A stretch of DNA of 49,968 bases from a virus, in the IMG/VR virus record IMGVR_UViG_3300049793_000122, positions 1 through 49,968 of that record. The stretch is one strand, 5' to 3'. Position numbers and translations under genes: made by a program. The notes below the pieces were generated by a model. It was not told where the DNA came from and did no database searches. It saw only the letters and a list, made by a program, of their open reading frames with translations. Of the stretch, positions 5,489 to 45,193 are shown one piece after another (positions within the stretch are counted from its first letter, which is position 1; every line of letters starts with the position of its first letter).

Positions 5489-5565
5489 TGGCCTTCGCGG
5501 CTGGACTTGAACCAGCAACAATCCGATTAGAAATCGGGCGCTCTATCCTATTGAGCTACGCGAAG
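5489..5565 (-). tRNA. tRNA-Arg (anticodon TCT)
   Basis: A 77-nt cloverleaf on the minus strand. Acceptor CTTCGCG/CGCGAAG, D stem GCTC/GAGC, anticodon loop TTTCTAA (TCT, reads AGA), T arm GCTGG-TTCAAGT-CCAGC, and encoded CCA. AGA is rare in GC-rich hosts, so the gene may help phage translation. The same anticodon occurs in the tRNA fragment at attP, 0.9 kb away, but the sequences differ clearly. Confidence 0.9.
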
Positions 5566-6212: not shown

Positions 6213-6524
6213 TCAGGCCGCGCGGACGGCCTTGCGAATTGCATTGCCGCTGGTGATCATAGTGTAGCCGTCCTCGAAAACCACGCAGATGCTGTTGAAC
6301 TTGCCGCGAGCCATGACCTTGCATGTCTGGCCTTTGCGGCCCTGTCGATCCCAACGATAGATGTAGAGCTGCTTTTCCGAGTTCCAAGTTTCTCCGTCTG
6401 TTCCGCATGGAAACGCAAGCTGTTTCTCGGAACTTCCATTGAAAATACTGGCTTTCGCCCGGCCTTCTAAGCCGATGGTCACAGGTTCGAATCCTGTCGG
6501 GATCGCCACTATTTTCAACGACAT
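6213..6524 (-). CDS. Small conserved phage protein whose 5' end overlaps attP
   Basis: The C-terminal 50 residues (YRWDRQGRKGQTCKV, then ARGKFNSICVVFEDGY) look like a real small basic phage protein. The only in-frame ATG upstream (6524) and a TTG at 6573-6575 both force translation through the antisense of the tRNA-Arg fragment. If so, integration would replace the N-terminal codons with host sequence. No ribosome site is visible at 6524. The motif SEKQL occurs twice 25 residues apart, hinting at a local duplication. The true start is uncertain and may lie left of attP. Confidence 0.5.
   Translation of the reverse strand: MSLKIVAIPTGFEPVTIGLEGRAKASIFNGSSEKQLAFPCGTDGETWNSEKQLYIYRWDRQGRKGQTCKVMARGKFNSICVVFEDGYTMITSGNAIRKAVRAA
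6459..6508 (+). other. attP: attP core: 3' half of a tRNA-Arg(TCT) gene
   Basis: From the anticodon stem onward the sequence is an intact tRNA 3' half: loop CTTCTAA, stem GCCGA, variable loop, T arm ACAGG-TTCGAAT-CCTGT, acceptor strand CGGGATC, then GCCA. The 5' half is absent. This is the usual structure of a phage attachment site that restores a host tRNA gene on integration. It lies 71 bp from the end of the integrase gene, and phage genes flank it on both sides. Confidence 0.85.
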
Positions 6525-6578: not shown

Positions 6579-7703
6579 TCAGTCATTATTTGTTCTCGCG
6601 CGCAGCCTTGTGCGACCTAGCCGGCGGGCTGCATCTGCCTGCCGAACCGTCTCCAGATCGACCGGCTGATATGTCTTGTGCAAGGCGTTCGAGGTCGAGA
6701 TCGAGTTTGCCATTTTCGCCGCTGTCTCCGACGGCGTCGCGCCGCCGGCCTGTCCTTCAATCGCACCCGAGCGCCGCATATCGGCCAACGTCCGCGTGTC
6801 GCCAGGGAAGCAAAGCTCGCGCACGGTGGCGAAGTCATCCGGCAGCGTGAAGCGGGAATAGATCGCACCCGACCGATTGCGTAAGATCGCCCCGACCTCA
6901 CATGGGAAAAGGGTCAAATAGTCATCCATCAAGGCGAGGGAGCGCCGTCCAAGCGTTCCGATGGCTGAGCGGCCCGACTTTGCCCTCTGGATAGGAAAGT
7001 GCCGTCCTGAGCCTTCCCCTGTAATACCTGCCTTGGTCAGGCCGCGAAGGTCTGCCGGCGAAAGCTGGGTGTCCCACGCAAAGGCGATGGCGACCGCCAG
7101 ACCGTAGAACTTTTCCCGCCATGCTTTCTTGGCGAGGATGACAGCCTCCCACTCGACCCAGATCTTTGACCGGGGAGCCGGCTGTGAATTGGTGATCGAC
7201 AGGGCGGGGTCTCTCTTGCCGTAGGTGTATTGCAGTGAGGCGCAGACGTTCCACAGCGCCCTCCATATCTTGATGGCCCGCCATGCCTCGCGCGCCGAAA
7301 CCTCATGGAAGACCATCGCCCGGAATCGAGACAGGGTTTCGAGGGTGATATCGTCGCTCGTCGGCGGAAGATCCCCGAACACCGGAGCAATGCGCGACCA
7401 TGCGCGCTCCCATTCCTCGCGCGTCCTCGGCTTCTTGACCTCGGTCCATTCCGTTGTTTTCCGGTAGCGGTCGAACGCTTCACCGATCGAACCAACCGGC
7501 CATCTTGGCAAAGCGTCCTGTTCCAGACTCTGCCGGTGACGCTGCCAGCGTTCATTCCATTGGGTGGCGACCGCCCAAGCTGCTGGCCCATTCCTCCCGC
7601 ATCTGATGTTTTTGAAGCCGTCAGCCTTCATGGCCGGCGTCGGCTGCCAGTACCCGTACACGCCCTTTTTTATGACGTAGTAGGGGATATCCACCTTACC
7701 CAC
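6579..7703 (-). CDS. int: Tyrosine-type integrase
   Basis: A protein of about 374 residues. The N-terminal part contains an arm/core-binding-like region (GVYGYWQPTP, then AVATQWNERW). The C-terminal catalytic domain has MRRSGAIEGQAGG, matching the second catalytic Arg box, and ALHKTYQPVD with the nucleophilic Tyr. The first Arg box (SPADLRGLT) and the second His box (MANSIST) are divergent. The start is taken as GTG 7703, overlapping the stop of the upstream gene; GTG 7694 is an alternative. It lies next to attP and behind an excisionase-like gene. It would catalyse integration at tRNA-Arg. Confidence 0.85.
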   Translation of the reverse strand: MGKVDIPYYVIKKGVYGYWQPTPAMKADGFKNIRCGRNGPAAWAVATQWNERWQRHRQSLEQDALPRWPVGSIGEAFDRYRKTTEWTEVKKPRTREEWERAWSRIAPVFGDLPPTSDDITLETLSRFRAMVFHEVSAREAWRAIKIWRALWNVCASLQYTYGKRDPALSITNSQPAPRSKIWVEWEAVILAKKAWREKFYGLAVAIAFAWDTQLSPADLRGLTKAGITGEGSGRHFPIQRAKSGRSAIGTLGRRSLALMDDYLTLFPCEVGAILRNRSGAIYSRFTLPDDFATVRELCFPGDTRTLADMRRSGAIEGQAGGATPSETAAKMANSISTSNALHKTYQPVDLETVRQADAARRLGRTRLRARTNND

Positions 7704-7968
7704 CCATCTTCTCCAGCCTTGCGATGACAAGGCCGGAAGGTTGCGCACGCGGTGCGGACTGTGGCAAGGTTCGGGTGTGACGTTTCGCGCGCCATGCGTC
7801 GATGGCGTCGAGGTCGTAGTTACCGGTATCTGGGTCGGACGGCGGAAAACCTCTCCCAAGCAAACGCGGTAGAATCGCCGTAAACTGCTCCAAAGACAGG
7901 CCCATGCGACGCGCGGCCTTTTCTGGCGGCACGTCTCGCGGCTCGACTTGGAAGCGCAAAGTGGTCAA
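7696..7968 (-). CDS. Excisionase-like / HTH DNA-binding protein
   Basis: A 90-residue protein with RDVPPEKAARRMGLS followed by FTAILPRLLGRGFPP, DPDTGNYDLDAIDAW and an Arg-rich end. The early part fits a winged-helix/AlpA-like fold in which a recognition helix is followed by a small sheet, as in recombination directionality factors. It starts at TTG overlapping the previous stop (TTGA) and ends overlapping the integrase start. Position directly upstream of int supports a role in excision. The fold is inferred. Confidence 0.6.
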   Translation of the reverse strand: MTTLRFQVEPRDVPPEKAARRMGLSLEQFTAILPRLLGRGFPPSDPDTGNYDLDAIDAWRAKRHTRTLPQSAPRAQPSGLVIARLEKMGG

Positions 7969-14390: not shown

Positions 14391-14580
14391 TGGCGGCCTC
14401 CAGCGCGACAGGCGAGCCATCCAAGAACGTTAGGCGATCGTCGGCTTCGGTCGCAGCGCTCGTGCTGCCGAGACCATAGCGGACAAACACAAGGTTCGCG
14501 CCGACGTTGACTGAGGTGACTGTTCCTTGCTCGCCCTTGGCGCCGGGATAACTGGCGGTGTAGACGACCGCCGTCGCCAT
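14383..14580 (-). CDS. Small beta-rich early protein
   Basis: A 65-residue protein (MATAVVYTASYPGAKGEQG, then NLVFVRYGLGSTSAATEADD) with alternating hydrophobic residues, as in a small SH3-like barrel. It starts overlapping the Bet stop (TAATG). Function unknown. Confidence 0.55.
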   Translation of the reverse strand: MATAVVYTASYPGAKGEQGTVTSVNVGANLVFVRYGLGSTSAATEADDRLTFLDGSPVALEAANG

Positions 14581-15590
14581 TACCTCGCTCCCACGCGCTG
14601 GACATGCGTCCGCTTGATCGACATGGCGAGCGCCTGGCTGTCCTCGTCGCCTTCGAACTTGGACAGCGGGTCAGCATCGTTCCAGACTTCGGCGATCTCG
14701 GCGGCAGTGGTTGCGGCCTCCATCGCCGTTTCGAGCCGGGTGAAATAATCGCCGAGGGTTTCAGTCTCCTCGATAATGGCGTCCGTCGCCTCGCCGGTTT
14801 CTGTGACAGTCTCGCGCTCGTCGATGATCTCGCCGGTTTCGGCGTCGACGACTTCGGCATGGTGAGCGATCTGCTGCGACGGCGGGACGGGCGGCTTGGG
14901 CGGGACAGGCGGCGCACTGTGTTCGATCACAGCGCCTTCCAGTGACCGGCCTTCCATCTCCTCGGCGGCGTAGGTATTGCCAAGTTCTTCCGGGAATGCC
15001 TTGCGCAGCGCCGCGGCCTCGACGCACTTGTCCAGTTGTCCGCGCGGCCGCTTCGCCCACATGTCGTTCGGAACTTCCGACTTGCCGATCGATGCGTAGG
15101 TTTCTTCCCAGAAGACTTTCGCGTGATAGGCCGATTTTTGGCCGGCGACGATGCGATAGACAATGACCGAAGCCCATTCGGGGAACCGGACTTTCTTCGT
15201 CATGGTGCTTTCGTTCTGGCCGCTGCCGACCGAACCGCTGAAAGAGCGTTCAAGCATCGGGCCGAACTCAACCGCGTCGATGCCGGCATACTGCCCGGTG
15301 CGGCTGGCCGTGGTGCGGATCTCGGCAATGCCAGGCCAGACCGTTTCGACCATCGCCTTCTTGGTCGACGACCACATGGGGACGATGTGAACAGGCTTCT
15401 TGAAGATGTCGAGGTTGCGCTTGCGGCAGTAGGCCAGTGCCATCATGACAGCCTCGACAGACTTGGCGGCCGGGAAAATCTGGTCGACTAGCACCCGCCA
15501 TTCCGCCGGCGCGATTTCGAACTCCTTGGCGACCGCCGCCGGGATCGGCATGCGGGACGGCTGGATGGTGGCTATGGCGTTCATGGTCAT
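14580..15590 (-). CDS. bet: Bet/RecT-type single-strand annealing protein
   Basis: A 336-residue protein. The core (residues 8-235) carries the Bet family pattern: ALAYCRKRNLDIFKKPVHIV, TVWPGIAEIRTTA, YAGID, KVFWEETYA and LDKCVEAAALRKAFPEELG. The C-terminal 90 residues are acidic and Pro-rich. It anneals complementary single strands in phage recombination and concatemer formation. ATG 15590 overlaps the upstream stop and has AGGGAT five bases before it. No lambda Exo-type partner nuclease was recognised nearby. Confidence 0.88.
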   Translation of the reverse strand: MTMNAIATIQPSRMPIPAAVAKEFEIAPAEWRVLVDQIFPAAKSVEAVMMALAYCRKRNLDIFKKPVHIVPMWSSTKKAMVETVWPGIAEIRTTASRTGQYAGIDAVEFGPMLERSFSGSVGSGQNESTMTKKVRFPEWASVIVYRIVAGQKSAYHAKVFWEETYASIGKSEVPNDMWAKRPRGQLDKCVEAAALRKAFPEELGNTYAAEEMEGRSLEGAVIEHSAPPVPPKPPVPPSQQIAHHAEVVDAETGEIIDERETVTETGEATDAIIEETETLGDYFTRLETAMEAATTAAEIAEVWNDADPLSKFEGDEDSQALAMSIKRTHVQRVGAR

Positions 15591-15820
15591 TTGATCCCTA
15601 TGGTGTGCGGCAGTGGGTATGGTTCGCTGCGATGGCCGGACGGATTCCAGCAAGTCGTTTCGCCGACCTGCGCCTTCTGCGCACCGCCCAAGAACTTTGC
15701 TGTGTCTGGATATTTGGCCTTGAGGATGTCGATCATTGAACCGCCGGACCACAGGTCGAACGTCGTAATGCACTTGCAGCGATCAGCGGTTCCTGCTTCC
15801 GTAAGTCCGGTCATATCCAT
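15587..15820 (-). CDS. Hypothetical small early protein
   Basis: A 77-residue protein with CKCITTFDLWSGGSMIDILK followed by KYPDTAKFLGGAQKAQVGE. It sits between Bet and the coiled-coil protein and overlaps Bet by 4 bp. No family recognised. Confidence 0.55.
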   Translation of the reverse strand: MDMTGLTEAGTADRCKCITTFDLWSGGSMIDILKAKYPDTAKFLGGAQKAQVGETTCWNPSGHRSEPYPLPHTIGIK

Positions 15821-15822
15821 GG

Positions 15823-16932
15823 TCAGATGACCTTTTCCTGTTCTTTGACTTCCATGCCGTCGAACGGCATACCGGCCTTGGCGGCTCGCTGCGCAAGCCT
15901 GTCGATCTCGGCGATGAAATCGGGATGCTTCATGGCAACGAGCGCTGCCGCGGCCTTCGCATAGTCGGTCACCACGCCGACCTTCTCTGTCCGCAGCGAT
16001 GTCTTGGCGCCAGTGCGGCCGACAGAGACGGAGCGGGCCTGTGCTTCGCGCTCGGCATCAGCCAGGCGCTTGGCGGCTTCCTCTGCCGTCTTGCGCAGTT
16101 CCTCGGCTTCCTCAGTGCTAGGTCCATCAGCCGGGCCAGCGTCGGCCTCCCTCGCCGATGCCGCTTCCTGTGCCATACGGGCGGCCTCAGCGGCTTCCTC
16201 GGCCTCGCGGCGTATCTTTGCCGCTTCGGCCAATGCTGCTTGCTGGCGGGCGTTCTCCTCGTCGCGTTTTTGCTTCAGGAATGCCTCGACACCGCACCGC
16301 GCCTTTTCGATCATGATGACCGGATCGCTGTCCTTGTCGTGTGCTAGATAGCGGTACTTCTCATCGATCTGGCGCGACTGCAGCAAGACTGGTGCCTTCT
16401 CCGCCGTGAACATCAAACCGGCGCGCGACTTGATCTTCATGATCCGGTCCTTCCAGATCGATACGCGGTCGGCATCGGCCTGGGTCTTGACGCCTTTCTT
16501 CAGGGCTTCCTCAAGCTGTTCCTTCTCACCGATGTACTCGATGCGGAGCGCTTCCAGTTGATCCGCGTCACCGCTGTTGTCGCCAATTGTCGGGGCTGGC
16601 GGCTCGTCATCGAATCCCTTGCCGTCGACCGCAGCCTGGTATTGTTCGTAGCTGATCGGATTGGTGGCGCAGTAGGTCCACACATCATCGGCGTGAACCT
16701 CTTTGCCATTCCGATAGGCGACGAGATCGGTGGAGCTTTCCGGAAAGAAGATGGCGATCGGCTCCCACTGCCCGCCTTTCGAACGAGCTCGAAAATATCC
16801 TTGGCTCGGCTCATGGTGGAGCGGGATGGATTTGCCGATCTCAGCCGGCGACTTGAGCGCGGCAAAATACCAGGCCCATGGATCCACAATCTTCGCGGCA
16901 ACGGCGCCGGCCTGCTGAAACGTGTCGGTCAT
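15823..16932 (-). CDS. Large coiled-coil early protein next to Bet
   Basis: A 369-residue protein. The N-terminal 110 residues include WYFAALKSPAEIGK and FFPESSTDLVAYRNG. The centre is a long charged coiled coil (about residues 125-310, with a very Ala/Glu-rich stretch at 225-300). The C-terminus is helical and ends in KEQEKVI. Proteins of this shape often accompany RecT/Bet in phage operons. A structural or recombination-mediator role is possible, but no family was recognised. Confidence 0.65.
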   Translation of the reverse strand: MTDTFQQAGAVAAKIVDPWAWYFAALKSPAEIGKSIPLHHEPSQGYFRARSKGGQWEPIAIFFPESSTDLVAYRNGKEVHADDVWTYCATNPISYEQYQAAVDGKGFDDEPPAPTIGDNSGDADQLEALRIEYIGEKEQLEEALKKGVKTQADADRVSIWKDRIMKIKSRAGLMFTAEKAPVLLQSRQIDEKYRYLAHDKDSDPVIMIEKARCGVEAFLKQKRDEENARQQAALAEAAKIRREAEEAAEAARMAQEAASAREADAGPADGPSTEEAEELRKTAEEAAKRLADAEREAQARSVSVGRTGAKTSLRTEKVGVVTDYAKAAAALVAMKHPDFIAEIDRLAQRAAKAGMPFDGMEVKEQEKVI

Positions 16933-17881: not shown

Positions 17882-18042
17882 GCGGCCTCCTGTTGGTGAG
17901 CGCGATCTGCTGCAGCGCGGCGCACAATGCGCTCTGCCTCGTCGGCATCGACGCCTGCCGTGAGCAACATTTCGTACCAGTGAAACCGGCGTTCCCAGTC
18001 GGTCTGGAAACGGAGCAGGCGGGCGGCGTCGAGAATGTCCAT
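17878..18042 (-). CDS. Hypothetical small early protein
   Basis: A 54-residue helical protein. ATG 18042 (MDILDAARLLRFQ) is chosen because GGGAGGG lies seven bases upstream. Contains WERRFHWYEMLLTAGVDADE. No family recognised. Confidence 0.55.
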   Translation of the reverse strand: MDILDAARLLRFQTDWERRFHWYEMLLTAGVDADEAERIVRRAAADRAHQQEAA

Positions 18043-18043
18043 T

Positions 18044-18325
18044 TCATGCCCTCCCAAAAGCGCCAGCACGGCGCATTGCAGCAGTCCGGTTGATGCGGTA
18101 TTCTGGCGCTTCGTCTTCCTCGGGGAAGAAATCCGCCGTCACGTCCCTGACGATCTCGCCCTCAGTGACGCGGTGAACATGAACCGAAGCAGGGTTCTTC
18201 GAATACGAGACGAGTTCGCGAGCATCGTCGGCGCCGACCATCGCTTCTGTCAGCTTGGCGGCGATCGCTTCCCGCGCCATACCGGCGAAATCAACACCGG
18301 GCATTTCAAAACTCATCGAGGCCAT
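18044..18325 (-). CDS. Hypothetical early protein
   Basis: A 93-residue protein starting at ATG 18325 after GGAGACGGAAG. It has an Ala-rich helix (MAREAIAAKLTEAM), then an acidic patch (FFPEEDEAPEY) and a basic end. Function unknown. Confidence 0.55.
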   Translation of the reverse strand: MASMSFEMPGVDFAGMAREAIAAKLTEAMVGADDARELVSYSKNPASVHVHRVTEGEIVRDVTADFFPEEDEAPEYRINRTAAMRRAGAFGRA

Positions 18326-18366
18326 CTTCCGTCTCCATTGCAGCGGTATTCAGTCTTGTGTGGGGT

Positions 18367-19092
18367 TCAGGCGGCGACAGCTTCGGTAAGCTCCAGCCAC
18401 ACGCAGCCGGGTGCCTTCATGTCGATCAGCATTTGCACAACGTCTTCCGCGAACTCGCTCAGAACCTTGTCGCGGATTTCGGCGCGGTCGGCGTAGGCGT
18501 CGGCGGAGGCGGAGGCGTAGGCGGAGGCGTCGGCGTAGGCGTAGGCGTAGGCGGAGGCGTCGGCGTCGGCGTAGGCGGAGGCGTAGGCGGAGGCGTAGGC
18601 GGAGGCGGAGGCGGAGGCGTCCCTTGCTACGTCTCGCGCTTCACGAGCGGCTTCCTTGGTGCCGTCCTTCTCGCAGCGCAGCGCCGCGTCCAGAAGCTTG
18701 GCCTTGTGGGTACTATCGGGATGGCAGGAAGCCGCAGCCCGCAGTGCGATCGGCACTTGCTTACGAATGGCGAGGTCCACAAGACGGCGCGAAAATTCCT
18801 TCGGGTCCAGATTGTCCTTGCTGCCGAGCTGGGCTACGGCGAGCCGGCGAAGGCCGAGAGCGCGGGCTGCATTCGAAGACCACGAACTGTCGTTCAGCCG
18901 GATTTTCAGCGAGCGAAGCAAGGGCGAAACACACTTCGGATCGTCCCCATGCGGCAGGCCGAGTGCGAAACACACGGCTGCCTCAACGCACATCTCACCC
19001 GGCTTCGGCGAACCGAGCCCGCTGGAAAGGCCGGCGTCTACAACTTCAAGAACCTTGCGGGCTACGTCGCGGGTGATTTCGATTTTGGTCAT
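18367..19092 (-). CDS. First gene of leftward operon: helical protein with Ala/Tyr/Ser repeat region
   Basis: A 241-residue protein. Residues 1-155 are helical with no recognised fold. Residues 156-200 alternate Ala with Ser, Tyr or Asp, encoded by a hexanucleotide repeat tract. The tail (residues 201-241) is helical and acidic (FAEDVVQMLIDMKAPG). The ATG follows GGAG with good spacing and lies about 45 bases downstream of the presumed leftward promoter under OL1. Similar Ala-rich repeat proteins occur in other phages without known function. Confidence 0.65.
   Translation of the reverse strand: MTKIEITRDVARKVLEVVDAGLSSGLGSPKPGEMCVEAAVCFALGLPHGDDPKCVSPLLRSLKIRLNDSSWSSNAARALGLRRLAVAQLGSKDNLDPKEFSRRLVDLAIRKQVPIALRAAASCHPDSTHKAKLLDAALRCEKDGTKEAAREARDVARDASASASAYASAYASAYADADASAYAYAYADASAYASASADAYADRAEIRDKVLSEFAEDVVQMLIDMKAPGCVWLELTEAVAA
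18486..18621 (+). repeat. Degenerate hexanucleotide repeat tract (GGCGNA/GGCGTC)
   Basis: About 22 near-continuous 6-bp units of GGCGTA, GGCGGA and GGCGTC on the plus strand. The gene on the minus strand reads them as an alternating Ala-Ser/Tyr/Asp segment. Because the unit is 6 bp, expansion or contraction keeps the frame. Confidence 0.85.
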
Positions 19093-19142
19093 GTCCGTCT
19101 CCAGTTGCCGCCAAATGGCGACGTGTGCTTGGTCTGCTGGAG

Positions 19143-19148
19143 ATATTA
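19143..19148 (-). promoter_or_regulatory. Candidate leftward early promoter PL (-10)
   Basis: TAATAT on the minus strand, 17 bp from the -35 position with the operator OL1 exactly filling the spacer. The -35 itself is weak. Start of transcription would be near 19136, giving a short leader before the first leftward gene at 19092. Confidence 0.45.
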
Positions 19149-19165
19149 GTGGCAGAAAATGCGAC
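19149..19165 (+). promoter_or_regulatory. Operator OL1 (GTnGCA-N5-TGCnAC)
   Basis: GTGGCA-GAAAA-TGCGAC matches the dyad consensus in both arms. The same 17-bp pattern occurs at 19192, 21242 (partial) and 21276, at both ends of the repressor region. Confidence 0.7.
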
Positions 19166-19191
19166 TAACCGCAATAGGTAAAACGAAGAAA

Positions 19192-19208
19192 GTTGCAGAA
19201 AGTGCCAC
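19192..19208 (+). promoter_or_regulatory. Operator OL2 (GTnGCA-N5-TGCnAC)
   Basis: GTTGCA-GAAAG-TGCCAC. Both arms match, and it is almost the inverse of OR2 (21276-21292). Its centre is 43 bp from that of OL1, about four helical turns, which suits cooperative binding. Confidence 0.7.
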
Positions 19209-19239
19209 AAAGAATTTGCGTCACTTAGAACCGCGTGGC

Positions 19240-19275
19240 AAAAGAAAAGCCCCGGCGGGATGATCCGACCGGGGC
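19240..19275 (-). terminator. Rho-independent terminator of the leftward lysogenic operon
   Basis: On the minus strand, stem GCCCCGG (19275-19269) pairs with CCGGGGC (19255-19249), followed by TTTTCTTTT (19248-19240). It would end transcripts coming from the repressor operon before they reach OL and the early leftward genes. Confidence 0.8.
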
Positions 19276-19641
19276 GCGCAACAACAGAACTCGAATGGAT
19301 AAGTCAGCAGTTATGTATCACGGCGATCAGACCGGAACAACTGCAAAAGCCGTTGCGCGGCGCAAAAATCACAAACTGTTGTGTCTGCTCGGTGGTTCCC
19401 GGCAACAGGTGGTGTTCAGCGCGCGAAAGCGGCGATCTTCCAAGGGACTTGGCTCGCCAGCTACGATCAGTCCGGAAACACAATCCCAAGCGGTGGCCTT
19501 CTGCCAGGCTCAGAAGGAATCAAAAAATTGCGCGGAACCGTGGCCCATAGGACGCGCGGCCTTGAGAAGCTCGGCAACCCCGAGAACGGTGGAGAGCGGC
19601 GTTTGACATCAGCGGGCTGACCTCCCGTCTGTCGAACGACG

Positions 19642-19780
19642 TAGCGGCGCCGAAAAAAGCCGCTAGCGGAACGTGCAGGGACAATGCACGGCCCCGTCAT
19701 GGGGAAGGGATACCAAGTACGCGGGACTTCGGTCCTTCCTGTGGTCGGGGACTTGAGCGGGCCGGCGCCCATACCTCAAG
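19642..19780 (+). ncRNA. Candidate structured RNA: five tandem hairpins (strand uncertain)
   Basis: Five perfect short stems follow one another: TAGCGGC/GCCGCTA (19642-19665), CGTGCA/TGCACG (19672-19690), CCCC/GGGG (19692-19704), GGAC-TTCG-GTCC (19724-19735, a UUCG tetraloop on the plus strand) and CTTGAG/CTCAAG enclosing GGGC/GCCC (19752-19780). They lie in the 604-bp stretch 19276-19879, where I can support no protein gene on either strand. The UUCG loop favours the plus strand; the downstream terminator on the other strand favours minus. Pairing is seen; a functional RNA is inferred. Confidence 0.4.
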
Positions 19781-19879
19781 GCGGAAAGGGCAGAGCTATG
19801 CAGAGAGAAAGGAAGAGCGCTATGTGGAAATGGCTAAAGCGGCGGCTCGGAAACTCAAGCGAACGCAACGGTCTCACAA

Positions 19880-20239
19880 TCAATCAGACGATGGTTGCTG
19901 CTTTCGTTTGAAGGCGTCGTCTATATCCCTGAATAGGAAAGGCGTGACTAATGCCCCATAAATTTTCCGCCAGAACCGAATATACCAGTAAAGCGCGAGG
20001 CCGCCTGACACTCCGAGAAGTCCAACGGCTGCGAGAAGAGTGGCGCCGTGCATTCGTTGGAAAAGGTCTATGGCAAATCCTTCAACTGTCTCTGGCGCGA
20101 TTTGCCAAAACCACGCGGCGGTCAGGAAAACCACGATCAGCGCCAAGTGAAACACCGCGCAAGCGAGCCACATGATCACCAGCGAGAGCCGCCCTAGCAG
20201 CGAATGCAGAAATTCGAACGGCTGGATTATATCCTCCAT
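19880..20239 (-). CDS. Membrane protein in the rexB position
   Basis: A 119-residue protein with about two long membrane segments (near residues 17-45 and 66-88), a conserved-looking aromatic loop (LYWYIRFWRKIYGALV) and a charged C-terminus. No ribosome site is obvious at ATG 20239. It is the last recognisable gene of the leftward operon that begins with the repressor and would therefore be expressed in the lysogen. By position it is the counterpart of lambda RexB. Exclusion of other phages is a guess from context. Confidence 0.65.
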   Translation of the reverse strand: MEDIIQPFEFLHSLLGRLSLVIMWLACAVFHLALIVVFLTAAWFWQIAPETVEGFAIDLFQRMHGATLLAAVGLLGVSGGLALYWYIRFWRKIYGALVTPFLFRDIDDAFKRKQQPSSD

Positions 20240-20265
20240 GCGATTGAGCGTTTAGCTTGCTGCGC

Positions 20266-20685
20266 TCATGGCGCCATGTCGAGTATTGGTAAGCCGGCTC
20301 CACGACACGAACCGCCGATCATCAGAGCAGCGTTCGGAGATTGGTCCCCGGTCGCCACCAACTGGAATTGCCCTGTAGTTGGGGAAAGCTTTCCTTCGAA
20401 CGGTTGCATCCCAACGTATCCTCCGAAGCTGTTTTTGGAATTCACATAGCCGCAAGCGACGATCTCGTTCTGGCCTTGCCATACGCGCTGGCCGGCGATG
20501 ATCGTTCCAAACATGGCTGAGTACGGGTCTTTCATCCCATGGCGCACGCCATTCTCGATTGCGGTTCTAATCTCCGGGGTGAGGTCGATGCGCTGGACCG
20601 GATAGAGCTGCTGTTGCTGTCCAGATGCCACACATCCACCCAAAAGCGCGACAAGCGCTAAAAATCCAAAAGTCGAACGGCGCAT
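20266..20685 (-). CDS. Lipoprotein in the rexA position
   Basis: A 139-residue lipoprotein with signal MRRSTFGFLALVALLGGC (lipobox LLGGC) followed by a periplasmic domain containing KDPYSAMFGTIIAGQ, ACGYVNSKNSFGGYVGM and PFEGKL. The motif pair resembles a small lipoprotein family seen in rhizobial genomes and phages. ATG 20685 is chosen over GTG 20697 because GGAGG then has proper spacing. It sits between repressor and membrane protein, so it should be made in lysogens and could alter the cell surface. Confidence 0.75.
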   Translation of the reverse strand: MRRSTFGFLALVALLGGCVASGQQQQLYPVQRIDLTPEIRTAIENGVRHGMKDPYSAMFGTIIAGQRVWQGQNEIVACGYVNSKNSFGGYVGMQPFEGKLSPTTGQFQLVATGDQSPNAALMIGGSCRGAGLPILDMAP

Positions 20686-20776
20686 CATCCCCTCCACTGT
20701 AACCCAGACAACGACCCGGCCATTCTACTGCTCCTATGGCAAATCCACAGACCCATCGGTGCAGCCAAGGCTGATC

Positions 20777-21205
20777 TTAGTTGCGGGTTCCAGTCCGCAT
20801 AGGCAGTGTCAATTCCACGATGGTCTTCAGTTTCTTGACGTCCTCGGGATCGCTTTGTTGGATTCTGCGAGCAATCCAGTCGAGGTCGGGGTGACGCAGA
20901 AGCCCACTCGGGTCTGGTTCGTTGGTCTCGACATCACAAATTTCAAGCGCGCCAGCAATCCGCTTCTGCATGGCCGCTTGCGGGAGCTGCCCTTTGAGCC
21001 ACCGATAGACCTGGCTCTTGTCTACTGCCGGAAGGGACGTGTCGCCTTCGTTCAAGATGCGCAACAGGTCCATGGCATCCATCTCCCGCATCTCGAGCCA
21101 TTCGTTGATGAAATGGGGCCTGTTGGGTGTCTTTTGCTGATGGATCTTGCTGACTGGCTTTTCGTTGCCCGTCATTTCCTTCGGATTGTTTCTCGGTTTT
21201 CCCAT
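20777..21205 (-). CDS. Lysogeny repressor (XRE-type HTH)
   Basis: A 142-residue protein. Residues 28-90 fit an HTH domain: RPHFINEWLEMREMDAMDLL, then SLPAVDKSQVYRWLKGQLPQ as the recognition region, then AAMQKRIAGALEI. The C-terminal part ends in a helix (DPEDVKKLKTIVELTLP) that may serve dimerisation. It lacks a LexA-like peptidase domain, so induction would not follow RecA-driven self-cleavage. ATG 21205 lies 8 bases after TAAAAT, implying a leaderless or near-leaderless mRNA. It is divergent from the cro-like gene. Confidence 0.75.
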   Translation of the reverse strand: MGKPRNNPKEMTGNEKPVSKIHQQKTPNRPHFINEWLEMREMDAMDLLRILNEGDTSLPAVDKSQVYRWLKGQLPQAAMQKRIAGALEICDVETNEPDPSGLLRHPDLDWIARRIQQSDPEDVKKLKTIVELTLPMRTGTRN

Positions 21206-21206
21206 G

Positions 21207-21223
21207 GTGGCAGATTTTACCAA
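21207..21223 (+). promoter_or_regulatory. Possible operator OR3 (half site)
   Basis: GTGGCA-GATTT-TACCAA has a perfect left arm and a poor right arm. It overlaps the -10 region of the repressor promoter, where a third operator would serve autoregulation as OR3 does in lambda. Confidence 0.35.
21214..21219 (-). promoter_or_regulatory. Repressor promoter (PRM-like) -10
   Basis: TAAAAT on the minus strand, 8 bases before the repressor ATG. The -35 position (21237-21242) reads GCGACG, a poor match, and abuts OR1. A weak -35 next to an operator suggests activation by bound repressor. Confidence 0.5.
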
Positions 21224-21241
21224 TCAGCCAAAAAACCGTCG

Positions 21242-21258
21242 CCTGCACAAAATGCGAC
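21242..21258 (+). promoter_or_regulatory. Operator OR1 (partial consensus)
   Basis: CCTGCA-CAAAA-TGCGAC. The right arm is identical to that of OL1 and the left arm matches 4 of 6. It covers the -35 positions of both divergent promoters. Confidence 0.55.
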
Positions 21259-21268
21259 GTAGGGACTT

Positions 21269-21274
21269 TACAAT
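21269..21274 (+). promoter_or_regulatory. Rightward early promoter (PR-like) -10
   Basis: TACAAT on the plus strand, between OR1 and OR2. The start of transcription would fall inside OR2, so bound repressor would block it. The -35 is weak (TGCACA at 21244, spacing 19). Confidence 0.45.
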
Positions 21275-21275
21275 A

Positions 21276-21292
21276 GTTGCACTTTCTGCCAC
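21276..21292 (+). promoter_or_regulatory. Operator OR2 (GTnGCA-N5-TGCnAC)
   Basis: GTTGCA-CTTTC-TGCCAC, both arms matching. It lies just before the cro-like start codon at 21302, and its centre is 34 bp from OR1. Confidence 0.7.
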
Positions 21293-21301
21293 CAATAGCG
21301 A

Positions 21302-21514
21302 ATGACCGAAGAAAAGCAACCTTTCGCCAAGTTCCGCAAAGAGGCCGGGCTGACCATCGCCCAAGCCGCTGAAAAGTTTCGCGTGGACCGCACGACCATC
21401 ATTCGATGGGAGAAGGGCGACCCGATGATTCCGCTCAAGCGGCTGGAGGATGCGAAGAAGATTCTCGCCGCCTCCGTGCGGGAACTGCGCCCGGACCTGT
21501 TCGAGGCAGCCTAA
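21302..21514 (+). CDS. Cro-like XRE-family HTH regulator
   Basis: A 70-residue protein that is little more than one HTH: FAKFRKEAGLTIAQAAEKF, then VDRTTIIRWEKGDPMIPLK, typical of XRE domains. It is divergent from the repressor gene with OR between them, so it is the natural Cro counterpart. No ribosome site is seen before the ATG, which lies about 22 bases from the presumed transcription start. Its stop overlaps the stop of the next gene on the opposite strand. Confidence 0.8.
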   Translation: MTEEKQPFAKFRKEAGLTIAQAAEKFRVDRTTIIRWEKGDPMIPLKRLEDAKKILAASVRELRPDLFEAA

Positions 21515-21765
21515 TGTCTCAGCATCTTCAACCTGTCCCCGCCGCAACAGGCTATTCCAAGCACCTGCATGGTAGCCTGCATCGAGGCAATGAGGGACGG
21601 GATAGGCCGGATCACGCGGTTCACCACGATGTATTCGACGCCATCGACGCTGAAGGATTTCTGCGGGACGTAGCCGGTGAACCGCATCGTTCCATCGCCC
21701 AAATCCTCTGGCAGGACACCGCTGACGAAAACGTCTTGCACAATAATCGGTTCGGTCAAAATCAT
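21511..21765 (-). CDS. Hypothetical protein, paralog of the gene at 21904-22122
   Basis: An 84-residue protein from ATG 21765 (MILTEPIIVQDVFVSG), continuing EDLGDGTMRFTGYVPQKSF and YIVVNRVIRP, then a helical end. GGGAG lies 10 bases upstream. Its first 60 residues align with the neighbouring gene product. It is antisense to the rightward early transcript. Function unknown. The 138 bp between the two paralogs hold no convincing gene. Confidence 0.6.
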   Translation of the reverse strand: MILTEPIIVQDVFVSGVLPEDLGDGTMRFTGYVPQKSFSVDGVEYIVVNRVIRPIPSLIASMQATMQVLGIACCGGDRLKMLRH

Positions 21766-21903
21766 GGTGGCAACACTCCCAAAAACAGCCATTTGTCGGC
21801 TTCTCATTGGGGTCATGCTCGGGCCAATCGCAGTGCAACAGCAAGGGCGCTTGTAGAAGAAATAACAGCGACCCGCCGGCATGGTTGCTCAATCGTAAAA
21901 TCC

Positions 21904-22122
21904 TCAGTTGTGGCCGGTGGCGAGAGCCTTTCGCAGATCGCGAGCCAAGGCGCGGGCGACGATGATTGGAAGCACCAGCCTGCCAACAATGCGGTGCTCA
22001 TCGGAATGCGTGGCCCACGCTATCAGCCGCACGTCGCCGTTGATCGGCTCGATGTCCACGCCTTCGGCAAAGACATCCGGAATGATGACAGGCTCACTCA
22101 GGGGCGGTTCGTCTTCGGCCAT
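21904..22122 (-). CDS. Hypothetical protein, paralog of the gene at 21511-21765
   Basis: A 72-residue protein (LSEPVIIPDVFAEGV, then LIAWATHSDEHRIVGRLVLP) with a beta-rich first part and a C-terminal helix. CCGGAG precedes the ATG. It is divergent from the plus-strand gene at 22146 with only 23 bp between the starts. Function unknown. Confidence 0.6.
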   Translation of the reverse strand: MAEDEPPLSEPVIIPDVFAEGVDIEPINGDVRLIAWATHSDEHRIVGRLVLPIIVARALARDLRKALATGHN

Positions 22123-22145
22123 CAGTCTACACTCCGGAGGTCAGC

Positions 22146-22634
22146 ATGAGCGCTCCGCATACATCTGGTCTCGCCCCTGTAGACGCCGCCAGTTGCCGCG
22201 CCATGGCTCGCCAGTGCGGTGTGAACGTCAAAGAATATGTTGCGCGCAGGAATTATCCGCAGGTTCGCAAAGAACTTGAGCGCGCCAAGGAACTGACGCT
22301 CCTCGCGCTCAGATTCGAGCAGGAAGAACAGGTTTCGGCGTGGGGGACTATTACCGTGACCGAGAGCGCTGGCGGGATCGACTCCTCCCCGGTCTCGCCA
22401 GCCGCGAATCCCATTCCGCTGTCGCCCCCCAACCCTAGCCAGGCAGCGGATACGGCCGGCGATGTAGCGTACCCTGCATCGTCGGCCGCCCCCATTCCCA
22501 TGCAAAGCCCATTGGCCGAGCAGGACAGCACGGTTGGCCTCGCACCGTCGGAACAAGGCGAGGCACTTAATCGCGCCGACGCTGACACCGACATCACCAT
22601 GAAGCATTCCAACATCGCAGGACAGAGCGCATGA
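22146..22634 (+). CDS. Hypothetical early protein with Pro/Ala-rich tail
   Basis: A 162-residue protein after GGAGG. Residues 10-60 are helical (CRAMARQCGVNVKEYVARRN, then KELERAKELTLLALRFEQEE). Residues 75-160 are a disordered, Pro-, Ala- and Ser-rich tail. It starts the continuous rightward early operon and overlaps the next gene by ATGA. Function unknown. Confidence 0.6.
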   Translation: MSAPHTSGLAPVDAASCRAMARQCGVNVKEYVARRNYPQVRKELERAKELTLLALRFEQEEQVSAWGTITVTESAGGIDSSPVSPAANPIPLSPPNPSQAADTAGDVAYPASSAAPIPMQSPLAEQDSTVGLAPSEQGEALNRADADTDITMKHSNIAGQSA

Positions 22635-23083
22635 AACACCTGCAGCCCGTTCCACTGGATTTGGAAAGCGCGAATGCTTTCGTCTCACTGCATCACCGCC
22701 ATCATCTGCCGGTCATCGGCCATAAGTTTTCCATCGGCGCCGCGGTAGGCGATCGCCTCGTCGGCGTGGTTATCGTCGGTCGGCCCGTCTCGCGCATCCG
22801 CGATAATGGATGGACGCTAGAAGTCACTCGGCTGGCGACGGACGGAACGCGGAACTCCTGTTCGTTCCTGTATGGCGCAGCGGCGCGCGCGGCCTTCGCG
22901 CTCGGATATCGCCGCATAGGCACGTACATCCTCGCCAGCGAGCCTGGAACGTCTCTAGCAGCTGCGGGCTGGCGGCAAGTCGGCGAGGTCAAGGGACGCT
23001 CCTGGTCCTGCGTTTCCCGGCCGCGCATCGATAAGCATCCGACAAGCGACAAGCTTCTCTTCGAACTTGGAGTTGCAGCATGA
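22631..23083 (+). CDS. XF1762-family (GNAT-like) protein
   Basis: A 150-residue protein with FVSLHHRHHLPVIGHKFSIG, GDRLVGVVIVGRPVSR, LEVTRLATDGTRNSCSFLYG, YRRIGTYILASEPGTSLAAA and GWRQVGEVKGRSW. These match the XF1762 family, small phage proteins with a GNAT-like fold. Acetyltransfer is suggested by the fold, but neither substrate nor activity is established. Confidence 0.8.
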   Translation: MKHLQPVPLDLESANAFVSLHHRHHLPVIGHKFSIGAAVGDRLVGVVIVGRPVSRIRDNGWTLEVTRLATDGTRNSCSFLYGAAARAAFALGYRRIGTYILASEPGTSLAAAGWRQVGEVKGRSWSCVSRPRIDKHPTSDKLLFELGVAA

Positions 23084-26457: not shown

Positions 26458-26811
26458 TTGAACGCACAAGCATTGGAAAACGACTTCGCCGAAACGCTCG
26501 AAAATGAGATGTCGAAGGTCGTCAATTTTCGTCCAAAACAGGAAGATGAACTTGAGCGCTTGGCTGGATATCATCGCCAAGGTGAACTGAAATACCGCCA
26601 GCGCGCGGCCGACACACGCCGTTCGATGAAGCTCAAAGAGACGATGTTCAAGGTCGACGAGAAAGCCGAGATCGCCCGCCACAAAGCTGCCATGGATCTC
26701 ATTGCCGAGCAGCGCGCCAACAACAAAGAACTCAGCGAGCGGGCGATTGCGGCGGATGAGAAGCTGGCGGCTTACAATCGCGCGGCCGTCGATATGCTGG
26801 CGGCGGAGTAG
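26458..26811 (+). CDS. Coiled-coil early protein (TTG start)
   Basis: A 117-residue, highly charged helical protein (ENDFAETLENEMSKVVNF, later NNKELSERAIAADEKLA). It starts at TTG 26458 with GGGGGA eight bases upstream and no in-frame ATG nearby. It ends 5 bp before the Dcm gene. Function unknown. Confidence 0.6.
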   Translation: MNAQALENDFAETLENEMSKVVNFRPKQEDELERLAGYHRQGELKYRQRAADTRRSMKLKETMFKVDEKAEIARHKAAMDLIAEQRANNKELSERAIAADEKLAAYNRAAVDMLAAE

Positions 26812-26815
26812 GGCG

Positions 26816-28456
26816 TTGCGCTTCCTCAGCCTTTGCAGCGGAATCGAAGCAGCCTCGGTAGCGTGGGCTCCGCTTGGCTGGAAAGCCGCCGCGGTGGCCG
26901 AGATAGAAGCGTTCCCGTCTGCTGTCCTGGCGCACCATTACCCAGACGTTCCGAATCTCGGCGACATCACCAAATTCAAGGAGTGGCCTGACCTTGGCGC
27001 AATTGACCTTATTTGCGGAGGCACCCCGTGCCAGTCCTTCTCGATCGCTGGCCTTCGCAAGGGCCTTGCTGACCCACGGGGAAACCTCTCCCTCACCTTC
27101 CTTGCAATTGTTGACCGATACCGGCCTCGCTATGTCATCTGGGAAAATGTGCCTGGCGTCCTGTCAGATGACGGAGGACGGTCTTTCGCTTCCATCGTCG
27201 GAGGCCTGGGGCAACTGGGGTACGGGTGGGCCTACCGGGTCTTGGACGCGCAATATGTCCGAGTGGACGGGCTTGGTCGCGCCGTTCCCCAACGACGAAG
27301 GCGTGTCATCGTTGTCGGATATCTTGGAGACTGGCGACGTGCCGCAGCGGTACTTTCTGAGCCCGAAAGCGTGCTCGGGAATTCTCCGCCGCGCCGAGAA
27401 GCGAGGGAGGGATTTGCCGCCGGCGCTCTTGCAGGCACTTCGCCAGGTGGCGGCTGGCGAGTTGGAGCCGACGAAGCCGCTGCAGGACAGCTAGTCGCCT
27501 TCGGCGGCGGCAATTGTTCTGGGCCGATTGAAGTAGCGGCCAGACTGGCCGCTCATGGCGTACGGCAGGACTTCGAAGTCGAGACGTTCGTCGCCAATCC
27601 ACTGCGAGCGCAGGCGCAGCATAGCCACAGGCTTGACAGCGACAATGACATTGTCGCTCCGCTGGTTTCGGCATGTGAAGTTGCCGACACGCTTTCAGTT
27701 GGGGCGAACCAAACCACGGGCTTCAGAGGCGATGACATCGCCTCTCGCATATCAGCGCATGATGTCGCCGAAACACTGACGAGCAACGGCGATGCTCACA
27801 GCGGCTTCCGGGAAGCTGCTGGACTGGTCGCGCACAGCCTTCGGGCCGAAGGCTTCGACGCCAGCGAGGACGGAACAGGGCGGCAAACGCTTGTACCCAT
27901 CGCCATCCAAGAGCGCGCCATATCCGAAAACCCAGACGCTGGACCTGATGGCATTGGAGTTCGTCAAGATGGCGCAGCCTACACACTCGAAGCGCGCACG
28001 GTCCCTCAGGCCGTTTCCTACGGCCTCTCAACCCAGCAAGAGCCGAAGTTCGGCGTCGATGTCAGCCCAACTCTCGCTCTGCCATCCAAGACAGGCGGCG
28101 GCCAAGTAACTGCGGTTGCCTTCCAGCCGCGCTTCGCCCGCAACGACCGGGGCGCACCATCTGAAATAGCCTATCCGCTCACTGCAGAAGCTGGCCGCAC
28201 CGGCAAGGGGGACAGCGCACAGTGCGTCCAGCTTGGCTGGGCAGTCCGACGCCTCATGCCCGTCGAATGCGAGCGCCTGATGGGCTTCCCTGACGGCTAC
28301 ACCGACATCCCCCACCGCGGCAAGCGAGCCGCAGACGGTCCCCGGTACAAAGCTCTCGGCAATAGCTGGGCGGTCAATGTCTTCCGCTGGGTCGGTCGCC
28401 GGATTGAGATGGTTGAGCAGATCGCGGCTGACCTCGAGAAGGAGGCGGCAGCATGA
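26816..28456 (+). CDS. Cytosine-C5 DNA methyltransferase (Dcm-type)
   Basis: A 546-residue enzyme. Motif I is FLSLCSGIEAAS (residues 3-14), motif IV GGTPCQSF with catalytic Cys72, motif VI ENVPG (110-114), motif VIII PQRRRRVIVVGY (158-169), and motifs IX/X near the end (CERLMGFPDGYT, ALGNSWAVNV). The target-recognition region (about 180-470) is long and contains loosely repeated ADTL/AETL and GFR segments. The start is TTG 26816 with GGAG upstream. It would protect phage DNA from restriction. A second gene overlaps it in another frame. Confidence 0.92.
   Translation: MRFLSLCSGIEAASVAWAPLGWKAAAVAEIEAFPSAVLAHHYPDVPNLGDITKFKEWPDLGAIDLICGGTPCQSFSIAGLRKGLADPRGNLSLTFLAIVDRYRPRYVIWENVPGVLSDDGGRSFASIVGGLGQLGYGWAYRVLDAQYVRVDGLGRAVPQRRRRVIVVGYLGDWRRAAAVLSEPESVLGNSPPRREAREGFAAGALAGTSPGGGWRVGADEAAAGQLVAFGGGNCSGPIEVAARLAAHGVRQDFEVETFVANPLRAQAQHSHRLDSDNDIVAPLVSACEVADTLSVGANQTTGFRGDDIASRISAHDVAETLTSNGDAHSGFREAAGLVAHSLRAEGFDASEDGTGRQTLVPIAIQERAISENPDAGPDGIGVRQDGAAYTLEARTVPQAVSYGLSTQQEPKFGVDVSPTLALPSKTGGGQVTAVAFQPRFARNDRGAPSEIAYPLTAEAGRTGKGDSAQCVQLGWAVRRLMPVECERLMGFPDGYTDIPHRGKRAADGPRYKALGNSWAVNVFRWVGRRIEMVEQIAADLEKEAAA
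27132..27494 (+). CDS. Overlapping gene inside the Dcm gene (alternate frame)
   Basis: A 120-residue protein in another plus frame of the Dcm gene, from ATG 27132 (a TTG at 26994 would extend it by 46 residues). It contains EDGLSLPSSEAWGNWG, PTGSWTRNMSEWTG, SLSDILETGDVPQRYFLSPK and CSGILRRAEKRGRDLPP. I recognise this motif series as a recurrent small phage protein usually found with Dcm genes. The same bases encode the Dcm PQRRRR-VVGYLGDWRRAA part, so both frames look conserved. Function unknown. Confidence 0.55.
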   Translation: MSSGKMCLASCQMTEDGLSLPSSEAWGNWGTGGPTGSWTRNMSEWTGLVAPFPNDEGVSSLSDILETGDVPQRYFLSPKACSGILRRAEKRGRDLPPALLQALRQVAAGELEPTKPLQDS

Positions 28457-43190: not shown

Positions 43191-43741
43191 GGTGCCTGGA
43201 GATCGGGCCGAACAAGGCGAAGATCGCCGGATTCGAAACCCTCGATATAGTGGCCGGGCCGCTCGTCGATCATGTCGGTGATGCAAGCGCTCCGCCTTTT
43301 GCTGATGGGACGTTTGATCTCGTCTATTCGAGCCATGTCCTTGAGCATATCGAGTGGGAAGGTGTCGCCGACACTGTCAAGCAGTGGGCACGCATTCTCA
43401 AATCGGATGGCTGGCTCGAGGTGCATACCATCGATGCCCGCCGGCTGATGGCCGCGCTCCTGCACTTCGATGAGACCGGCGAGTGGACCGGCCCGAACCC
43501 GACATGGCGCGAGGCGCAGACCGGCGGCGATCCCTATCTGTGGTGCGTTGCCCGGTTGATGAACTATCCCAAGGGCGGCAACGAATATCAGAAGCACCGC
43601 ATGCTGCTGACGCCGAACTACCTGGCGCGCTGCTTCAAGGATGCCGGTCTGGTCGATCTGGAGCCGCTGACCCGCGAGGACGCGCGTGCATCTCGCCATC
43701 ATGCATTCATCAATCTCGGCCTGAAAGGGCGAAAGCCCTGA
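43187..43741 (+). CDS. SAM-dependent methyltransferase (class I)
   Basis: A 184-residue protein starting at GTG. CLEIGPNKAKIAGFETLDIV is motif I, then PPFADGTFDLVYSSHVLEHI and GWLEVHTIDARRLM, as in the Methyltransf_11 type used for sugars and small molecules. It overlaps the upstream gene by 4 bp and the PRTase gene by 1 bp. With the glycosyltransferases downstream it probably modifies a glycan or a sugar precursor. Confidence 0.8.
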   Translation: MRCLEIGPNKAKIAGFETLDIVAGPLVDHVGDASAPPFADGTFDLVYSSHVLEHIEWEGVADTVKQWARILKSDGWLEVHTIDARRLMAALLHFDETGEWTGPNPTWREAQTGGDPYLWCVARLMNYPKGGNEYQKHRMLLTPNYLARCFKDAGLVDLEPLTREDARASRHHAFINLGLKGRKP

Positions 43742-44565
43742 TGTTGAGCGTCCGCAGCATCGCCGATCTCAATCGGGCCATCATCGCCAACCTGCACCGG
43801 CTCGATCGCAATTCGTTCGATGTCGTTGTCGGCATTCCGCGCTCGGGCATGATCCCGGCATCGATCCTTGCAACGGCGCTGCAGTTGCCGCTGTCGGATG
43901 TGGAGAGTTTCGCCAGGGGATATGTGTTCGAGCGCTCTGGCCGGCTTGCCGGCGCGGGCAAGCGCATCCTGCTGGTCGACGACACAGTCAATCACGGCAC
44001 GGCGATGGCCAATGCTGTCAAGCGCATCGGCGCAGGCGTCGCGATCACACGGTTCTGCGTCTTCGGGCCGTACCGCGGCATTGACGGCCTGGTCGACATC
44101 TTCTGCGAGACCGTGCAGGGGCCGCGCGCCTTCGAATGGAACATTGTGAAGCACGCGCGCCTCAACCGCTGGTGCTTCGACTTCGACGGCGTCTTCTGCC
44201 GGGATCCGTCAAAAGAGGAAAACGACGACGGCGCGCGCTATCTGCGCTTCATCGACACCGCCGAGCCATTATTCATCCCGACGCGGCCGATCGGCCATAT
44301 TGTGACTGGCCGGCTGGAAAAATACCGCGCGGCAACCGATGCATGGCTTCGCCGCTACGGGATCCAATATTCGAGCATGACGATGATGCCATTTGCAACC
44401 AAGCAGGAAAGAATGGCGCACGGCGGGCGCGGGCAGTGGAAGGCCGAGAAATTCAGCCAGATCGGCGCCGAGTTCTTCATTGAGTCTGATCGCAAGCAGG
44501 CCGGCATCATTGCCGCCGCGAGCGGACTGCCTGTGTGGTGTGTCAAGACACAGAGCCTTGCATGA
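43741..44565 (+). CDS. Phosphoribosyltransferase-HAD-like fusion
   Basis: A 274-residue protein. Residues 1-135 form a type I PRTase domain with ILLVDDTVNHGTAM as the PRPP-binding motif and VVGIPRSGMIPAS before it. Residues 138-274 begin WCFDFDGVFCRDPS, the first motif of a HAD phosphatase, and contain FFIESDRKQAGIIA as a later motif. The enzyme could make and dephosphorylate a ribosyl compound. It lies in the sugar-modification cassette. Confidence 0.75.
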   Translation: MLSVRSIADLNRAIIANLHRLDRNSFDVVVGIPRSGMIPASILATALQLPLSDVESFARGYVFERSGRLAGAGKRILLVDDTVNHGTAMANAVKRIGAGVAITRFCVFGPYRGIDGLVDIFCETVQGPRAFEWNIVKHARLNRWCFDFDGVFCRDPSKEENDDGARYLRFIDTAEPLFIPTRPIGHIVTGRLEKYRAATDAWLRRYGIQYSSMTMMPFATKQERMAHGGRGQWKAEKFSQIGAEFFIESDRKQAGIIAAASGLPVWCVKTQSLA

Positions 44566-44971
44566 GAGCGGTGGCGATGCCCAGCAGCAATCGATCAGCG
44601 CGCGGGAACTGATCTTCGTCCAATACTTCTGCGAGATATTCCCCAAGCTGCCGAAGCGGCTCCGGAGACCTATCGATAGCAACGGAAAGGAAGTGTTCGG
44701 CTTCTTCGTGAGCGTCGATCCGCGCTGCCAACAGTATCTCAATTTCATCAGCGGCTTCCTCGAAATGGAGTGCATCGCCAAGGGCCGTTGCCGTTTCCTC
44801 GCTTCTGGCGGTTGCCGCACGTTCGCGTAGGCGATGTCTCAAATCGGACGGCTGTAGCGTGTCGCCAAGGCGCGCAAGAAGTTTCGCTGCATAGGCGTCG
44901 GCCCCTGCGTCGATGATTTCAGGATCGATGTCGTGCTTAAGAAAGTCTGCGATAACCTCAAGAGGCGTCAT
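44543..44971 (-). CDS. Partner B of antisense HTH cassette, unknown
   Basis: A 142-residue acidic helical protein from ATG 44971 (MTPLEVIADFLKHDIDPEII), with the same GGAGG-AATGGAA leader as partner A. Later parts include HFEEAADEIEILLAARIDAH and a Leu-rich end. It shares no visible similarity with partner A. Its last 23 bp overlap the PRTase gene tail to tail. It may be the effector of the cassette; function unknown. Confidence 0.65.
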   Translation of the reverse strand: MTPLEVIADFLKHDIDPEIIDAGADAYAAKLLARLGDTLQPSDLRHRLRERAATARSEETATALGDALHFEEAADEIEILLAARIDAHEEAEHFLSVAIDRSPEPLRQLGEYLAEVLDEDQFPRADRLLLGIATALMQGSVS

Positions 44972-45144
44972 TTCCATTCCTCCATCCGGTGATAGAGCGC
45001 AGCGCACGCAAGACTGACCGTCTGCGGGGCGCCTTCCTTCTTGTATCGGGTGATCGTGTTCACGTTGACGCCTAGCAGGCGAGCCGCCTCGGCGCCGGTG
45101 ATCTTCATGGCTTTGAGCCAAGTGCAAAATTCATTCGCTGTCAT
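44968..45144 (-). CDS. HTH regulator of antisense cassette B
   Basis: A 58-residue XRE-like HTH protein: MTANEFCTWLKAMKITGAEA, then LLGVNVNTITRYKKEGAPQT and CAALYHRMEEWK. It is a paralog of the product at 39789-39965. The ATG lies 6 bases after a perfect TATAAT, so transcription should begin at or next to the start codon (leaderless). It likely represses its own promoter. Confidence 0.85.
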   Translation of the reverse strand: MTANEFCTWLKAMKITGAEAARLLGVNVNTITRYKKEGAPQTVSLACAALYHRMEEWK

Positions 45145-45150
45145 ACCCCG

Positions 45151-45193
45151 ATTATAGGGACGTTTCGGCGCTCATGTCATCTACAAAATGTGG
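45151..45193 (-). promoter_or_regulatory. Promoter and operator of cassette B
   Basis: On the minus strand: near-palindrome CTACA-AAA-TGTGG in plus notation (45181-45193), then -35 ATGACA (45180-45175), an 18-bp spacer and a perfect -10 TATAAT (45156-45151). The order is the same as in cassette A. Confidence 0.75.

Follow-up and report, generated by a model that had tools for sequence, protein, structure and literature searches.

The window analysed here is the whole 49,968 nucleotides of the IMG/VR record IMGVR_UViG_3300049793_000122, an uncultivated viral contig. Between positions 19149 and 21514 it carries a compact regulatory region that, with high probability, provides a temperate phage with its immunity and operates in the manner of lambda's. 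From left to right the region holds left operators (OL), two accessory genes, a repressor gene in the position of cI (20777-21205, minus strand), right operators (OR) and a divergent cro-like gene (21302-21514, plus strand). This lambda order, with operators at both ends, had been proposed in a preliminary description; it is indeed present and is conserved in relatives.

The operators are copies of a 17-bp palindrome, GTGGCA-N5-TGCCAC, two on the left and three between the repressor gene and cro. For scoring, a symmetric 17-bp matrix was built from 28 sites in six related loci (L009-L012, L015 and L083), leaving the window out to guard against circularity. Among the roughly 50,000 positions of the window, ranks 1 to 5 are exactly the five operators (all given on the plus strand): OL1 (19149-19165; rank 1, 20.7 bits), OL2 (19192-19208) and OR1 (21276-21292), which share ranks 2-3 at 20.2 bits each, OR3 (21207-21223; rank 4, 17.4 bits) and OR2 (21242-21258; rank 5, 12.0 bits). 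With the same matrix, 200 first-order shuffles of the window gave a top score of 18.0 and a mean best score of 12.9. A repeat finder also paired the left and right palindromes directly. By these scores the five sites are not due to chance. OR2 is weak by itself, and the case for it is its conserved position, 34 and 35 bp from its neighbours: measured start to start, OR1-OR2 is 34 bp and OR2-OR3 is 35 bp in all loci of the clade to which the window belongs (see below). The two left operators lie 43 bp apart in the window and 43-44 bp apart in four relatives; in L015 the distance is 34 bp.

Three putative promoters were read by hand from an alignment of seven loci including the window, and the operators lie over all of them. 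The predicted leftward early promoter pL (19146-19174, minus strand) consists of a -35 element TTGCGG (19174-19169), a 17-bp spacer holding OL1 and a -10 element CACTAA (19151-19146); the OL regions of relatives show a matching arrangement (TTGC.., 17-18 bp, an xACTAT-like element). The predicted rightward early promoter pR (21267-21295, plus strand) has a -35 element TTTACA (21267-21272), a 17-bp spacer holding OR1 and a -10 element CACCAA (21290-21295) that ends 6 nt from the cro ATG; its -35 element and its distance to the ATG are conserved in relatives. Between these two, the predicted repressor promoter resembles lambda pRM (21214-21242, minus strand; -35 GCGACG at 21242-21237, 17-bp spacer, -10 TAAAAT at 21219-21214) and stops 8 nt before the repressor ATG. 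Its spacing and the GGTA of its -10 region are conserved across the seven loci. OR3 covers its -10 element, OR2 abuts its -35 element, and the centre of OR2 is 45 bp ahead of the repressor ATG. Lambda CI bound to OR2 activates pRM from about the same position.

In all seven loci a Shine-Dalgarno sequence is missing in front of both the repressor gene and cro (the longest match is 4 nt, in one locus), whereas most other genes of the window have one. Both messages are therefore probably leaderless. In phage PY54 leaderless cI and cro mRNAs have been demonstrated by rapid amplification of cDNA ends (PMC4488713).

The repressor has 142 amino acids (aa), with a helix-turn-helix (HTH) segment DKSQVYRW and no peptidase domain; its family ranges from about 120 to 142 aa. 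An AlphaFold (AF2) model (pLDDT 85) is all helices, with an HTH that has a long turn and without a second domain. The window protein itself is too diverged for Pfam and gave no match there, and most members of its family carry a Cro/C1-type HTH (HTH_31 in 25 of 38 members, HTH_3 in 22 and HTH_26 in 16). None of the 38 matches the S24 cleavage domain. All Foldseek matches of the model were non-significant, including the top row, the controller protein C.Csp231I, and the N-terminal domain of TP901-1 CI (probability 0.97, E about 0.9). The preliminary description had held the proteins to be unlike lambda CI, the whole being a parallel solution or a very diverged relative. Unlikeness holds for the rest of the repressor and not for the HTH of most family members; a very diverged relationship with lambda would fit the DNA-binding domain only, and does not extend to the rest of the repressor, the operators or the cargo. 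A kinship with lambda CII was considered on the likeness of DKSQVYRW to the DKSQISRW of CII (PDB 1zs4, E 0.036; 0.044 with a larger profile), and it was dropped because ordinary Cro/C1-type HTH proteins outscore CII with the larger profile. Since the repressor lacks the peptidase (S24) domain, RecA-driven self-cleavage is an unlikely route of induction. The cro-like gene encodes a 70-aa HTH protein (Pfam HTH_3, E 1.1e-8) that also matches phrog_3, 'transcriptional repressor'; cro homologues divergent from the repressor gene were found at more than 40 loci.

An intrinsic terminator (19239-19275, minus strand) closes the repressor operon just ahead of the left operators, as had been suggested. 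It is real in form, with a 10-bp GC stem (19249-19275; hairpin -21.8 kcal/mol, z -2.28) followed on the minus strand by the U-rich tail UUUUCUUUU; L009 and L012 have other hairpins with T runs near OL. Between terminator and repressor lie, both on the minus strand, a hydrophobic open reading frame (ORF) for a 119-aa membrane protein (19880-20239), which has no phage relative and no significant Pfam match, and a gene for a 143-aa lipoprotein with lipobox LLGGC (20266-20697; phrog_2320, E 2.6e-20, function not known). As to RexA and RexB, Pfam and NCBIfam gave no significant match, and no direct comparison with RexA/RexB was made. The roughly 600 bp from the terminator to the first accessory gene (19280-19880) hold no convincing gene; a comparable empty stretch of about 700 bp lies behind the repressor in L009. 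A structured RNA in this stretch was considered and rejected (no convincing Rfam match, folded stretches of ordinary energy).

The content of this slot is variable. Across the 55 loci with a clear left operator pair, the gap from the repressor stop to the first left operator measures 0-2,129 bp (median 539), and in 18 of them it is at most 204 bp and contains no ORF of 60 aa or more. Longer gaps hold unrelated cargo, such as Arc-type ribbon-helix-helix proteins, a VasI-like protein and an antitoxin-like HTH gene, among others, and the accessory pair of the window has no relative among the compared loci. A shared cargo protein was not accepted on the marginal match between the lipoprotein and a cargo protein of L061 (E 0.025, single pair). 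We regard what lies between the repressor gene and OL as optional cargo. Small Arc/ribbon-helix-helix genes stand just before OL, in the direction of the repressor, in L043, L049, L053, L054 and L011, which recalls P22 arc. A membrane protein and a lipoprotein made in the lysogen could plausibly act in phage exclusion. We make no claim to a defence role, as PADLOC matched only a few proteins of the cargo set, weakly, and did not match the membrane protein of the window.

An alignment search found the repressor locus at 69 places in viral contigs and at 11 in genomes. All genome loci named to genus belong to Rhizobiales (Aquamicrobium, Rhizobium, Brucella, Aureimonas, Kaistia, Methylobacterium and others), and the locus is found in three of 297 sampled genomes of the order of Aquamicrobium. 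The repressor is 44-53% identical to proteins in the same place in IMG/VR phages and an Aquamicrobium defluvii contig, and 30-37% identical to those of Rhizobium phage vB_RleM_PPF1, Pseudanabaena phage Pam5 and Microcystis phages Mwe-JY07/25. Seven loci including the window form one clade (support 100/95) with GTGGC operators, while the others have GTTGC-N7-GCAAC. In seven related loci the repressor gene, the operators, the predicted promoters and cro stand in the same places, and in about 75 more distant ones the GTTGC-N7-GCAAC motif recurs at both ends. Downstream of the repressor, 55 loci have a left operator pair, and the motif has 156 matches there against 17.3 expected from shuffles. In the GTGGC clade the turn between the two HTH helices of the repressor is about 10 residues longer than in the GTTGC family. 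The sister of the clade, L013, has GTTGC operators and the segment DKSQTSRW, where clade members have DKSQVYRW. We do not take this covariation as proof of binding, as the change from GTTGC to GTGGC together with S to Y took place a single time, on a single branch.

The remaining genes of the phage fit such a switch. To the left, beyond pL, the first gene of the early operon (18367-19092, minus strand; GGAG before the ATG) encodes an Ala/Ser/Tyr-repeat protein of no known function, in which a simple-sequence stretch of GTAGGCGGAGGCG-like units (18480-18620) is translated into the Ala/Ser/Tyr/Asp repeat. Exonuclease and RecT/Bet-type annealing genes follow in the same operon (14580-16932, minus strand; phrog_10477, E 1.2e-10, and phrog_2449, E 3e-67), the annealing protein matching TIGR01913 bet_lambda above its cut-off, and a NinB-like gene also lies in the leftward region. 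Rightward genes include Mom-like, T5orf172, methyltransferase, DnaB-type helicase, terminase, head and portal genes. The Mom-like DNA modification gene (22631-23083) and a methyltransferase gene (26702-28456) in the rightward early region suggest that the phage DNA is modified. Phosphoribosyltransferase-like and glycosyltransferase-like genes (43483-45943) stand between the prohead/capsid and portal genes. A divergent integrase (6579-7859, minus strand) was recognised through a phage homologue, the annotated integrase of Microcystis phage vB_MweS-yong2 (36% identity over 90%); Pfam Phage_integrase found no match in the window record. Adjoining it is a candidate attP core, the 3' half of a tRNA-Arg(TCT) (6461-6508, plus strand), the 27-bp end of which matches tRNA-Arg(tct) genes in two Rhizobiales genomes, including that of Aquamicrobium defluvii, with a single mismatch. 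Because of the integrase and the adjoining attachment candidate, the phage is very probably temperate. About 900 bp from the candidate, at 5489-5565, lies a complete tRNA-Arg(tct) beside a tRNA-Trp. The 'rhizobial type' ascribed to the phage before is borne out by these tRNA genes and by the named genomes; whole-region DNA similarity to known phages was not detected.

Taken together, the lambda-type reading is well supported by this anatomy, because an integrase, a candidate tRNA-Arg attachment sequence, exonuclease and RecT genes on the leftward side and replication genes on the rightward side accompany the operators. In a lysogen, the 20777-21205 protein would sit as a dimer on OR1 and OL1 and shut both early promoters, the rightward one leading to cro, modification and replication genes and the leftward one to exonuclease and RecT. 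On OR2, touching the weak -35 element of its own promoter, the repressor probably stimulates its own synthesis, and repressor or Cro on OR3, over the -10 element, would shut that promoter. Cro made from pR would bind the same sites and favour lytic growth. The repressor message, probably leaderless, would run leftward through the cargo slot and end at the terminator before OL, so that membrane protein and lipoprotein would be expressed in the lysogen as cargo.

Several results weigh against this reading. A sigma-70 scanner found no promoter-like site in 18000-22500 and thus neither pL, pR nor the repressor promoter, and the -10 elements of pL and pR match poorly. Because the scanner called none, we infer the promoters from conservation; what stands of the early promoters proposed before is promoter-like elements, overlapped by operators and conserved in relatives. 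The motif search found two left operators only, in the window as in its relatives, and no third. Among the proteins scanned, no antirepressor, N-like or CII-like gene was recognised. Finally, two distant loci with the Y residue keep GTTGC, and the covariation is thus weak evidence that this residue may read the changed operator base.

Two HTH proteins with palindromes between them could also be a local autoregulated pair in the style of a restriction controller or a toxin-antitoxin system, with the left sites incidental or belonging to another regulator. A small repressor lacking an oligomerisation or cleavage domain, with a controller protein as its best, non-significant structural match, would suit such a pair. 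We consider it improbable, however, as the scores of the left sites equal those on the right, their place is over the predicted promoter of the recombination operon, 55 loci have an OL pair, and no restriction or toxin gene is adjacent. Just as improbable is a reversal or sharing of roles, in which the 21302-21514 protein would be the main lysogenic repressor and the 20777-21205 protein its Cro-like antagonist. Both HTH proteins are expected on the same sites, and it is the former that matches phrog_3; yet position and transcription direction of the 20777-21205 gene fit CI, and transcription from its weak promoter, where OR2 occupies the activator position, would pass through accessory genes to a terminator, whereas the 21302 gene leads into lytic genes. 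A switch that has decayed to a remnant, in a phage no longer temperate, is more improbable still: the stretch without a convincing gene and the contig, on which no end repeats were found, would allow it, but repressor, cro, five operators, RecT and integrase are all intact and conserved.

With lambda the region shares gene order and directions (OL-rexB-rexA-cI-OR-cro), three 17-bp right operators, early promoters (here predicted) that are overlapped by operators, an OR2 placed where an activator of the repressor promoter would bind, a repressor mRNA that is leaderless (here by prediction), red-type genes on the left operon and optional accessory genes behind the repressor. Unlike lambda, two rather than three left operators were found, operator sequence and spacing (34/35 and 43 bp) differ, the repressor is about half the size and lacks the S24 domain, cro is apparently leaderless too, the accessory genes are unrelated to rexA/rexB by the searches made, and no N or CII was recognised. 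The immC region of Rhizobium phage 16-3 (NC_011103), also an alphaproteobacterial temperate phage, has the gene of its C repressor flanked by OL1-2 and OR1-2, and its annotation includes pL, Pc and pR. It differs from the window in that its repressor has 263 aa, its right operators number two, cargo is absent from the interval between repressor and OL, and int is left of OL; a single-pair BLASTP of the two repressors showed no similarity (best E 1.3). In N15, the repressor binds three OR and two OL sites (PMC4488713). The immB regions of N15, PY54 and phiKO2 differ in that they belong to linear plasmid prophages with other repressors and operators, and the N15 OL sites control repA, not a recombination operon as here. 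The repressors of PPF1, Pam5 and Mwe-JY07/25 are of the same family and are annotated only as HTH regulator or 'C repressor'. In PPF1 (IMG copy L049) the operators are of the GTTGC type and an OL pair is present; all these phages differ from the window in GTTGC- instead of GTGGC-type operators and in their cargo. The papers searched contained no study of their operators.

Layouts of this kind with other repressors are already known (16-3, N15, PY54); new here are the breadth of the repressor family, a slot whose cargo is optional and a repressor that lacks the cleavage domain. We see about even chances that these loci represent an undescribed class of lambda-type switch that is widespread among temperate phages of alphaproteobacteria, with a small repressor lacking a cleavage domain, repressor and cro messages that are both leaderless, and OL and OR bracketing an exchange slot for lysogen-expressed genes. 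If so, induction must go via a partner or an antirepressor and not via RecA-driven self-cleavage. The lambda switch is the textbook genetic switch, and the family would offer another, independently varied series of more than 50 natural copies in which operators, promoters and both regulators can be read from sequence. One may thus ask what evolution keeps when the proteins change, comparing the three right sites, OR2 by the repressor promoter, the distant left pair and the leaderless repressor mRNA. Repressors of alphaproteobacterial prophages are usually annotated only as 'HTH regulator', and a cluster of GTKGC-N7-GCMAC sites with a second pair would give a handle on the immunity regions and the lysogeny cargo of these prophages.

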